This document shows, piece by piece, positions 19,159-45,180 of a stretch of DNA of 64,000 nucleotides; within the stretch, counting starts at the first letter, position 1; the number at the start of each line of letters is the position of its first letter. Under the pieces are notes generated by a model. That model saw nothing but the letters and a program-made list of their open reading frames with translations, did not search any database and was not told where the DNA came from. The DNA lies in assembly GCF_030818905.1 (NCBI RefSeq), contig NZ_JAUTAZ010000001.1, forward strand, positions 2,046,001 to 2,110,000, in the 5' to 3' direction. The DNA is from Microbacterium sp. SORGH_AS_0888. Lineage in GTDB: Bacteria; Actinomycetota; Actinomycetes; Actinomycetales; Microbacteriaceae. The translations under genes were made by a program, and so were the position numbers.

Positions 19159-19977
19159 GTGGACATCACCAGCGTCACCGGCTTCCGTGCCGCGCGCACC
19201 CGCGACGATCTGCGGCTCGCGCCGGGCGAGGTCGTGATGGCGGGCGGCACCTGGCTCATGAGCGAGCCGCAGCCCGACACGACCGGCTTCGTCGACCTCA
19301 TGACGCTGGGCTGGCCCGATCTCGAGACGGACGACGCGGGACTGCGCATCGGCGCGACCTGCACGATCGAGCGCCTCAGGCAGTGGGCGGAGGCCGAGGC
19401 GCCGGCCGAATGGACCGCGCTGTCGATCGTGCCCGACGCCGTCAACGCCCTCCTCGCATCGTTCAAGATCTGGAAGACCGCGACCGTCGGGGGGAACATC
19501 GCCCGCTCGTTCGCGGCAGGGTCCATGGTCGCCCTCGCGGCGGGTCTGGACGGCATCGCCGAGGTGTGGACGCCGGACGGCGGCGAGCGCGCGCAGCCCG
19601 TCGCGGAGCTCGTGACCGGGAACGGCACGAACACGCTCGCGCCCGGCGAGGTCATCCGCGCCATCCGGCTTCCGGCCCGGACGCTGCGTTCCCGCGCGCG
19701 GATCCGCAAGATCGCCCTGGCCGAGCTCGGCCGGTCCGGCGCGGTCGTCACCGGCCGCGTCGACGAGGACGGCGCGGCCGTCTTCGGCATCACGGCGGCG
19801 ACGTGGGCACCCACCGTGCTGCGGTTCGACGCACTGCCGCGGCCCGTCGAGCTGGCGGATGCGGTGGGCGCGGCATCCGGGTACTACACCGATCCGCTCG
19901 GCTCGGCCGACTGGCGGCGCGGGGTCAGTCTCGTGCTCGCGGAACGCATCCGCGCCCAGCTGGAGGAGGCGGCATGA
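19159..19977 (+). CDS. FAD-binding subunit of a molybdopterin hydroxylase (xanthine dehydrogenase type)
   Basis: 272 residues from GTG 19159. CoxM/XdhB-type subunit that passes electrons through FAD. The flavin loop is recognisable as [14 protein letters not shown] and [33 protein letters not shown] marks the C-terminal domain. Its TGA overlaps the ATG of the following iron-sulfur/molybdenum gene by 4 bases, so the pair is coupled. With xdhC and mocA 10 kb away and adenosine deaminases downstream, a purine hydroxylase (xanthine/hypoxanthine to urate) is the likely enzyme, although CO or aldehyde dehydrogenase homologues share the fold. Confidence 0.9.
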
Positions 19978-22841
19978 GGTTCGAGATCAACGGCGAGTCC
20001 ACCGAGGCCGACCCCCGCCCCGGCCAGTGCCTGCGCACGCTCCTGCGCGAGCACGGGCACACCGAGGTCAAGAAGGGCTGCGACGCCGGCGACTGCGGGG
20101 CGTGCGGGGTGCTGCTCGACGGCGAGCCCGTGCACTCCTGCATCGTCCCGGCGATGCGGATGGAGGGGCGCAGCGTCACGACGGCGTCCGGCCTCGCGCC
20201 CGGCGACGAGCTGCATCCGGTCCAGGAGGCGCTGATCGAGAGCTTCGGGTTCCAGTGCGGCTTCTGCACCCCGGGCATGAGCGTGACGGCGTCCACGCTG
20301 TGCGCGTCCGACCTGTCCGATCTCGACCGGCGCATGAAGGGCAACCTCTGCCGCTGCACCGGATACCGGCCGATCCGCGAGGCGATCACGGCGTCCGTGC
20401 TCGGCCCCGTGCGGGAGACCGGCGCCGCCGCATCCGCCTCCCCCGCCGGGTCCCCACCCACCATGTCCCAGTTCGAACCGCTGGGGGAGGCTCCGAGCGG
20501 TCGAAAAGGGGACATGGTGGGGGAGGATGCGGCGGATGCCGGGCGCCAGGGGGTCGGGAGGTCCGTCCGGCCCGACGCCGGTCGCCGTGTCGTCCAGGGC
20601 CTCGAGCCCTACACCTTCGACGTCGTGGGCACCCCCGACCAGCCGTGGGCCGGCACCGCGCTGACCCTGCGGGTCGTCACGAGCCCGCACGCGCACGCCC
20701 GCATCCGCTCGATCGACACGAGCGAGGCCCTCGCGATCCCCGGCGTGGTCGCCGTCCTCACCCACGAGGACGCGCCTGCGATGCGATACTCGAGCGGCCG
20801 GCACGAGCACCGCGAGGACGACCCGGACGACTCCCGTGTGCTCGACGACACGGTCCGGCACATCGGACAGCGCGTCGCAGCCGTCGTCGCCGAGACCGCG
20901 GAAGCGGCCGACGCCGCCTGCCGCGCGGTGCGCGTCGACTACGAGCTTCTCCCCGCGGTCTTCGACCCCGACGAGGCACGCCGGCCCGGCGCGCCGCTGC
21001 TGCACCCCGACCGCACCCCCGCGGACCGCGTCGACGAGGCGCACCGCAACGTCATCGCAGGACTCCACGACGGCTCCGGCGGCGACATCGACGCCGCGCT
21101 CGCACACAGCGCCGTCACGGTCTCCGGCACGTGGCAGACCCAGCGCGTCACGCACGCACAGCTCGAGACGCACGGCGCGATCGGCTGGCTCGACGACGAC
21201 GGCCGCCTCGTCATCCGCTCGTCCACGCAGGTGCCCTTCCTCACGCGCGACGAGCTGTGCCGCGTCTTCGACATCCCGCAGGACCGGCTCCGCGTCTACG
21301 CGCCGCGGGTGGGAGGCGGGTTCGGCGGGAAGCAGGAGATCTTCACGGAGGACCTGGTCACCCTCGCCGTGCTGCGCACCGGTCGCCCCGTCGCCTACGA
21401 GTTCTCGCGCACCGACCAGTTCCAGCGGGCGTCGCTGCGGCATCCCATGCGCGTGAGCGTCACGCTCGGGGCGGATGCCGACGGCACACTGACCGCGATG
21501 AAGGTCGACGTCCTGAGCGACACCGGCGCCTACGGCAACCACTCGCGCGGCGTCATGTACCACGCGATGGCCGAGTCGACGACGATCTACCGCGCTCCCG
21601 TGCGACGCCTGGACGCCGAGGTCGTGTACACGAACAACGTGCCCTCCGGCGCGTTCCGCGGGTACGGCCTCGGGCAGGTGATCCTCGGTGTCGAGTCGGC
21701 GATGGACATGCTCGCGCAGCGACTCGGCCTCGACCCCTTCGAACTGCGGCGCCGCAACATGATCCGGGAGGGCGACCGGCTGCATCCGGATGCGGACGAG
21801 TACGAGGAGGACCTGATCTGGGGCAGCTACGGCCTCGACCAGTGTCTGGACCTCGCCGAGGCCGCGCTGCGACGCGGCAACGGTGCGACGGCGCCCGACG
21901 GCTGGCTCGTGGGCGAGGGCATGGCGGCCTCGATGATCGCCACCATGGCCCCGCGTGGCCACGTCGCGCACACGACCGCGACCCTGCGCCCCGACGGCAC
22001 GTACCTGCTGCGGGTCGGCACGGCCGAGTTCGGCAACGGCACCACGACGGTCCACCGGCAGATCGCCGCCTCCGTGTTCGGGGTCGGCTTCGACCGGCTC
22101 GCGCTCTGGCACGCCGACACGGACGCGGTCGAGCACGACACCGGAGCCTTCGCCTCGGCCGGCATCACGGTCGCGGGCAAGGCGCTGTACGCCGCGTGCC
22201 GCGCGCTCGAGGAGCGCATGCGCGCCGTCGGCGCCGAGCTCACGGGCACGGATGCGGCGGCGGCCGCCGTGACGCCCGACGGGGTCCGCGCGGGCGACCG
22301 GATCGTGTCGTTCGCGGAGATCGTGGCGGCCGCGCCGGAGGCTTTCCGTACCGAGCAGGGGCTCACGGCGGACGGCCGGGAGTTCGGCGACCAGCGCTCG
22401 CTCGCGTTCAACGTGCAGGCCGTGCGGGTCGCGGTCGATCCCGAGACGGGGACCGTCCGCATCCTGCAGTCGATCCAGTCCGCGGACGCCGGCGTCGTCC
22501 TGAACCCCGCCCAGTGCCGCGGCCAGGTCGAGGGCGGCGTCGCGCAGGGCATCGGCAGCGCGCTGTACGAAGAGGTCATGACCGACGGCGAGGGTCGGGT
22601 CACGAGCCCGGTGTTCCGGGTCTACCGCGTGCCGCAGTTCGCGGACGTGCCCGAGACCGAGGTGTACTTCGCGAAGACCTCGGACACGGTCGGCCCGCTC
22701 GGGGCGAAGTCGATGAGCGAGAGTCCGTACAACCCGGTCGCCCCGGCGATCGGGAACGCGATCGCCCGTGCCCTCGGCGTCCGCCCCTTCGCGCAGCCCT
22801 TCAGCCGCGATCGGGTCTGGCGTCTCGCGCAGTCCCGCTGA
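19974..22841 (+). CDS. Fused iron-sulfur and molybdopterin subunits of xanthine dehydrogenase-type hydroxylase
   Basis: 955 residues in one open frame. Residues 1-150 are the two-cluster [2Fe-2S] subunit: [16 protein letters not shown] and HSC for the plant-type cluster, CGFCTPG and CRCTGY for the second. Residues about 185-955 are the molybdenum subunit: [23 protein letters not shown] (cofactor loop near 445), [13 protein letters not shown], and [10 protein letters not shown], whose Glu aligns with the catalytic GEP glutamate. The two are separate genes in most bacteria. Here they are joined by a linker (about 160-184) encoded by a palindromic repeat. Likely makes urate from hypoxanthine/xanthine; specificity is inferred from neighbours. 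Confidence 0.9.
20457..20521. repeat. CATGTCCCA-type palindromic repeat inside a coding sequence
   Basis: CCCACCATGTCCC (20457-20469) and GGGACATGGTGGG (20509-20521) are perfect 13-bp inverted arms. Inside, TTCGAACCGCT (20472-20482) pairs with AGCGGTCGAA (20496-20505) with one bulged base. The element keeps the reading frame of the hydroxylase fusion and encodes a Pro/Gly-rich linker. It shares CATGTCCCA-TTC-GA-CCG order with the intergenic repeat at 45104-45180, so the two belong to one family. Confidence 0.85.
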
Positions 22842-22852
22842 CCGCGCACCTC

Positions 22853-22956
22853 GGACGCCGCGCATAACTCAGGCAGAACCGCCACCACAGCAGCAAAAAT
22901 CAGCCCGGGAGCCGACTCTGCCTGAATTACGGGCGACCACGGGGGCGACCACGGGC
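22853..22956. repeat. Direct repeat copy 1 with internal inverted arms
   Basis: About 100 bp starting GGACGCCGCGCATAACTC, repeated almost identically 131 bp downstream. Inner arms TAACTCAGGCAGA (22865-22877) and TCTGCCTGAATTA (22917-22929) are complementary apart from one pair, around a central run with AAAAA. It lies after the hydroxylase stop codon and before the convergent adenosine deaminase gene. Confidence 0.85.
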
Positions 22957-22983
22957 CGGCCGGCCGTCCACCCCGCCGACCCG

Positions 22984-23088
22984 GGACGCCGCGCATAACT
23001 CAGGCAGAACCGCCACCACAGCAGCAAAAATCAGCCCGGGAGCCGACTCTGCCTGAATTACGGGCGACCACCGGGGGCGACCACGGGC
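22984..23088. repeat. Direct repeat copy 2 with internal inverted arms
   Basis: Second copy of the element at 22853, identical over at least 88 bp and then differing by one inserted C. The pair fills the 270-bp gap between convergent genes together with GACCACGGG-type short repeats. Fold-back of each unit could terminate transcription from both sides. No ORF is supported here. Confidence 0.85.
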
Positions 23089-45103: not shown

Positions 45104-45180
45104 CATGTCCCACTTCCGACCGGTGCGGGCGCCCGGAAGCGGTCCGAAGTGGGACATCGTCCGGTCGGAAGTGGGACATG
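45104..45180. repeat. CATGTCCCA-type repeat with one left and two right arms
   Basis: CATGTCCCACTTCCGACCGG (45104-45123) and its exact 20-bp complement (45161-45180) form a perfect inverted repeat. A further right-type arm GGTCCGAAGTGGGACAT (45141-45157, one mismatch) lies between them, so two alternative hairpins are possible. It occupies the 109-bp gap between the acetamidase stop and the amidase start within one operon. Same family as the copy at 20457-20521. Confidence 0.88.

Follow-up and report, generated by a model that had tools for sequence, protein, structure and literature searches.

Palindromic repeats of different families in the interdomain linker of a fused molybdenum hydroxylase subunit of Microbacterium and its relatives

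The linker that joins the [2Fe-2S] and molybdenum parts of a fused molybdenum hydroxylase subunit in Microbacterium sp. SORGH_AS_0888 carries, in frame, a 51-bp palindrome of a kind otherwise located mainly between genes, and in related bacteria the same joint is occupied by palindromes of other families. We consider it very probable that this linker is a tolerated landing site for normally intergenic palindromes, the 51-bp in-frame insert included. The window referred to below is the whole stretch of DNA that was analysed, 64,000 nucleotides from contig NZ_JAUTAZ010000001.1 (positions 2,046,001 to 2,110,000), and the features within it are as follows.

19159..19977, + strand: FAD-binding subunit gene of a molybdenum hydroxylase (PF00941 FAD_binding_5, E 7.7e-14)
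19974..22841, + strand: fused [2Fe-2S]-molybdenum hydroxylase subunit, 955 aa (single open frame; Pfam domains)
20421..20555, + strand: variable interdomain linker, residues ~150-194 (invariant columns of 32 homologues end at T149 and restart at G195)
20425..20545, + strand: stretch folded as a predicted extended mRNA hairpin (-82.5 kcal/mol, against -58.1, sd 4.1, for shuffles; z -5.9)
20457..20469, unstranded: left 13-bp perfect arm, CCCACCATGTCCC (read from the sequence; within the inverted repeat)
20464..20514, unstranded: TGTCCCA-family palindromic repeat, 51 bp, in frame and stop-free (17 of 18 conserved terminal bases; length as in other copies)
20509..20521, unstranded: right 13-bp perfect arm, CCCACCATGTCCC (read from the sequence; within the inverted repeat)
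45104..45180, unstranded: intergenic copy of the TGTCCCA family with a third half-site (half-site pattern, inverted repeat, gene calls)

The fused subunit and its linker

The stop of the FAD-binding subunit gene overlaps the start of the fused gene (19977 against 19974), and the long frame that follows contains Fer2, Fer2_2, Ald_Xan_dh_C, MoCoBD_1 and MoCoBD_2, each above its Pfam cut-off. An earlier note on this DNA had described a xanthine dehydrogenase whose [2Fe-2S] and molybdenum parts share one frame. The open frame 19974-22841, with both sets of domains, bears out the shared frame, and judged by its five Pfam domains the product is a member of the molybdenum hydroxylase (xanthine oxidase) family, but the narrower name did not hold under a strict test for xanthine dehydrogenase: the top NCBIfam model, NF043082, gave 483.7 bits against the 780 required. 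As the product scored under the cut-off of every one of the 20 NCBIfam models listed, “xanthine dehydrogenase” (xdh) is used here as a working name, with xanthine as a putative substrate only. The top solved relative of the subunit, albeit a distant one, is the aldehyde oxidoreductase MOP (PDB 1sij, 907 residues; E 2.3e-83), in which both the Fe-S and the Mo domains belong to a single chain. An AlphaFold model of the fused subunit was poor overall (mean pLDDT 63.9), so that the values under 50 across residues 145-217 prove little about the linker, and querying solved structures with the linker sequence yielded no significant match.

Linker length varies widely between orthologues. The palindrome that the earlier note had seen in the joint is there, a 51-bp element at 20464-20514 inside the frame, together with the 13-bp perfect arms it described; the frame is open across the repeat, again as claimed. 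The right arm of the repeat is partly degenerate, and a wider imperfect palindrome covers 20443-20535 with 77% complementarity. The 51-bp palindrome has a strong predicted fold both as RNA and as DNA. The idea that the repeat encodes a linker of about 25 residues was right as to in-frame coding and slightly off as to size, with 17-18 residues coming from the repeat in a variable stretch of about 45.

The TGTCCCA family in the genome and the genus

A search of the window for the half-site, allowing at most three mismatches, gave five matches, where 100 shuffles averaged 0.95 and only 1 of the 100 reached five. Genome-wide, the exact half-site occurred 38 times against 0 for a reversed-pattern control, and the end pattern TGTCCCANTT...AANTGGGACA was found at 37 places, every one of them 51 bp long with 44-54 bp permitted. 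When slightly worn examples are included, 42 full copies are present in 229,538 bases of stretches fetched from this genome, all of which start with TGTCC and finish with GGGACA, and the repeat at 20464-20514 is a member of this family. Covariation links the two arms across the 42 copies: nine of 20 pairs are changed on both sides, which was matched by 4 of 500 shuffles, and the covariation score is 0.146 against 0.080 when shuffled (0 of 500 reach 0.146) and 0.023-0.059 for slid partners. Half-sites often repeat at 22-bp steps outside the palindrome. An Rfam scan of the window gave no match at gathering scores.

Using gene calls from a home-made codon-usage caller, 38 of the 42 copies are intergenic, three lie at or near a predicted gene 3' end and one, that in xdh, lies deep inside a gene; the 3'-end copy at 1652865 is 67 bp inside a predicted frame and is internal under the 60-bp rule used for other genomes. 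These placements agree with the earlier description of the repeat as intergenic in type, and the like copy that had been reported between genes at 45104-45180 is real. Of the 42 copies, 35 contain no stop when read in the same frame as in xdh, against about 64% when shuffled. At 22867-23058, shortly after the end of the fused gene, another palindromic pair (ACTCAGGCAGA ... TCTGCCTGAAT) occurs twice in tandem, and in seven relatives (L002, L008, L078, L091, L096, L098 and L104) one to four TGTCCCA palindromes occur just downstream of the fused gene, several of them ~105 bp apart.

Perfect-ended copies were found in 46 of 198 Microbacterium genomes. When 299 genomes from across the family were scanned, the pattern turned up in the window's own genome only, and hence in 0 of the 293 that belong to other genera; the exact end pattern skips worn copies, so that these genome and copy counts are lower bounds. 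The TGTCCCA family is seen only in Microbacterium in these scans. In most of the carrier genomes listed the repeat is 50-52 bp long, and the arms look typical of each species.

Several candidates for the mover or source of the family were considered and rejected. A RAYT is not supported, as the Y1 transposase model PF01797 had no match in a search of 18 genomes that included 12 carriers. An IS481 source, or a MITE of IS481, was rejected because no TGTCCCANTT end was seen beside the IS481-like loci of the window's genome, and because three transposases (L150, L151 and L154) that do have a TGTCCCA next to them have it within GTGTCCCACGCT at the gene start and not at an end. Repeats flank an MTES_1575/DUF559-like gene on both sides in the window's genome, a like gene in G216 and perhaps one in G206, but this gene was rejected as the mover because its matches are under cut-off and the repeats of L064 and L065 adjoin other genes. 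A viral origin was set aside likewise: 23 stretches from a viral collection fit the end pattern, and, as judged by eye, the arms of this genome are present in none of these stretches, whose loci have a G+C of 0.34-0.63. Near phosphofructokinase, a small gene is flanked by palindromes on either side in L061 (5359-6657), L240 (1662-2840) and L239 (1609-2833); in L061 and L240 this gene matches MTES_1575 weakly. The palindrome positions there seem to be kept in G216 and perhaps in G206, with arms that differ by species.

Orthologous loci and other repeat families in the linker

In each of the 99 orthologous loci examined the gene is fused, a single frame encoding both Fe-S motif and molybdenum part. 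They comprise L001-L019 and L069-L148, the latter being the best 80 of 183 found, and contain 92 distinct linkers, with some genomes represented twice; the set excludes 11 loci of more distant relatives, L020-L030, in which the two parts are split between frames or pieces. Microbacterium, Agromyces, Isoptericola, Pseudoclavibacter, Gordonia, Pseudonocardia and other families of the order are all represented among the fused loci. The TGTCCCA repeat is in the linker of two of the 99 (L001 and L074) and absent from the linker in 97, and the fusion therefore predates the repeat at 20464-20514. The motif is present in 119 of the best 120 protein homologues listed, all 119 being single chains of 900-983 residues, and the homologues P0003 (82% identical) and P0004 (81%) are fused with short linkers in which no repeat was recognised.

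Different lineages hold different palindromic families in the linker, namely TGTCCCA, GTCCANGACAC, CTCCTGCAG and GCTCGCTCAACG, and for every one of these families at least one host genome contains additional copies. A TGTCCCA-type peptide is present in eight of the 119 homologues (seven recognised by script and P0009 by eye, with the DNA seen for two), in the same frame and with 16 codons between the ends. The nearest homologue, P0002 (88% identical; protein only), has a GTCCANGACAC peptide where the window protein has TGTCCCA. Perfect arms reach 19 bp in the linker of L069 and 17 bp in that of L133, where the best of 80 coding windows from the same genes is 13 (these windows are 250 nt, and linkers vary in length). 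The L069 genome contains the GTCCANGACAC repeat 11 times, the linker copy included, and the L109 and L113 genomes, whose own linker copies are worn, each have it at three places elsewhere. The CTCCTGCAGATC repeat occupies six places in the L133 genome, again with the linker included; six other genomes gave the linker copy alone in three and nothing at that stringency in the other three. In the L122 genome the GCTCGCTCAACG repeat gave 58 hits, two of them in the linker, and L115 and L106 were put in the CTCCTGCAG group by eye. The linker repeat of Gordonia is a weak case, with five hits in each of two genomes (two and three of them in the linker, the others being less exact) and none in two other Gordonia genomes searched. 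A recurring ARNLGSTG-like peptide in the linkers of L132, L134, L136-L139 and L145 (Agromyces, Naasia and Amnibacterium) is perhaps another repeat.

In five other genomes, 53 copies of these other families were classed, 46 as intergenic and seven as internal, with 30 of 58 hits looked at in G518. Four of the internal copies are in the xdh linker (one in G514, one in G525 and two in G518), and the other three lie in frame in an ABC transporter (L181 2500-2547), a MazG protein (L184 2486-2533) and a UDP-glucose dehydrogenase (L204 2554-2579). The share that falls in xdh is biased because the families were picked for occurring there.

A tree was built from 55 rows, consisting of 32 of the 119 proteins and 23 of the 99 loci, with the linker removed. 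The linker-repeat label changes nine times over seven states on this tree, with TGTCCCA needing two changes and GTCCANGACAC three; the labels of P0002, P0088, L115 and L106 come from the peptide or by eye, and that of L102, one of the seven states, is a putative CTGAGCCCGTCGAAGG repeat. A single clade is rejected for both families, at p-AU 0.0007 (TGTCCCA) and 3.6e-82 (GTCCANGACAC). The tree indicates more than one origin in the linker for each of these two families, and horizontal transfer of the fused gene could mimic such separate origins.

How the linker may have come to hold repeats

We propose that a normally intergenic palindrome of 51 bp, equal to 17 codons, landed in the long and unconstrained interdomain linker of a subunit that was already fused, that the frame stayed open, and that the insert was retained because the extra residues were harmless. 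The repeat-derived residues would be neutral and the protein would remain one chain. Palindromes of other families would have entered the same linker in other lineages, and the presence of several families in one linker argues for a tolerated landing site. An active mobile process would insert such repeats widely and they would persist where they do no harm, in intergenic space and in a long linker, where an insert would survive if it were stop-free and its length divisible by three (51 and 48 bp here).

Three other explanations deserve consideration. The repeat peptide might have been selected as a useful linker rather than tolerated, and all eight homologues retain the frame and the spacing of 16 codons although the palindrome has decayed in the two with DNA seen. 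We regard such exaptation as improbable, as the sister protein P0002 has another repeat by peptide, P0003 and P0004 have none recognised, and linkers differ freely in length and make-up. Marginally less probable again is a function for the hairpin or for in-frame starts, either in pausing between domains or in an internal start of the molybdenum part. The hairpin predicted at 20425-20545 is strong, and in-frame ATG (20463 and 20514) and GTG (20517) codons are present, the GTG 5 nt after AAAAGGGG, so that an internal start at GTG 20517 is possible. However, the ribosome-binding-like AAAAGGGG is partly paired in the predicted hairpin, one arm has decayed in the window and the other in L074 with the frame kept in both, and 97 of the 99 orthologues lack such a repeat yet have a fused frame. 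The earlier proposal of internal initiation was correct in noting ATG and GTG codons, but the start at GTG 20517 is not kept in L074, the only other locus whose DNA was seen to have the TGTCCCA repeat in its linker, where no start codon follows the right arm. Finally, it is very improbable that the repeat lay between two genes and that its insertion, or read-through, joined them, as the earlier note had claimed: the repeat does sit in the joint, its family is mainly intergenic and L020-L030 have the two parts apart, but all 99 orthologues are fused, 97 of them lack the TGTCCCA repeat in the linker, with other families of the order, Gordonia and Pseudonocardia among these 97, and some relatives carry different repeats at this point. 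The check it had suggested, a search of related xdh loci for separate genes without the repeat, gave orthologues that were all fused, the same fusion occurring with unrelated linkers, which is the outcome that the note had named as refuting its proposal.

The tolerated landing site has parallels elsewhere. As a working likeness, the linker repeat resembles the protein-coding palindromes of Rickettsia in being a multicopy palindrome in frame within a gene. Rickettsia palindromic elements (RPEs) form several families and occur in frame in many protein genes, according to a review (PMC10969869), which gives them about 150 bp, whereas the repeats here are about 48-60 bp, actinobacterial and mainly intergenic; the likeness is one of description. 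Two further papers describe intragenic repeats from several bacteria besides Rickettsia: the GTAG/CGTC REP elements with RAYT, short intergenic palindromes with some copies inside genes (PMC3733652), and the enterobacterial ERIC/RU, small repeats with open frames that are found intragenically (PMC2759123). REP/RAYT systems have a Y1 transposase, for which the 18 genomes searched here gave no match, and the words Microbacterium and Actinobacteria are absent from the main text of PMC3733652; ERIC/RU repeats are longer, at 103-168 bp, and have other hosts. Judged by titles and the starts of abstracts, literature searches gave no match, among the matches listed, for Microbacterium palindromic repeats or for actinobacterial palindromes within genes, and none for palindromes in frame in linkers; nothing was found on repeats in Microbacterium xanthine dehydrogenase linkers.

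Rather tentatively, Actinobacteria may possess palindromic mini-elements of fixed length that fall into several unrelated families, with covarying arms specific to the species and an enzyme other than a RAYT as mover; interdomain linkers, that of xdh above all, would be their recurrent safe harbours within genes. The xdh linker is one protein joint that is filled in frame by different repeat families in different lineages. It provides a natural record of intergenic repeats turning into protein sequence, and it brings to light a palindromic family that these scans show in Microbacterium alone.
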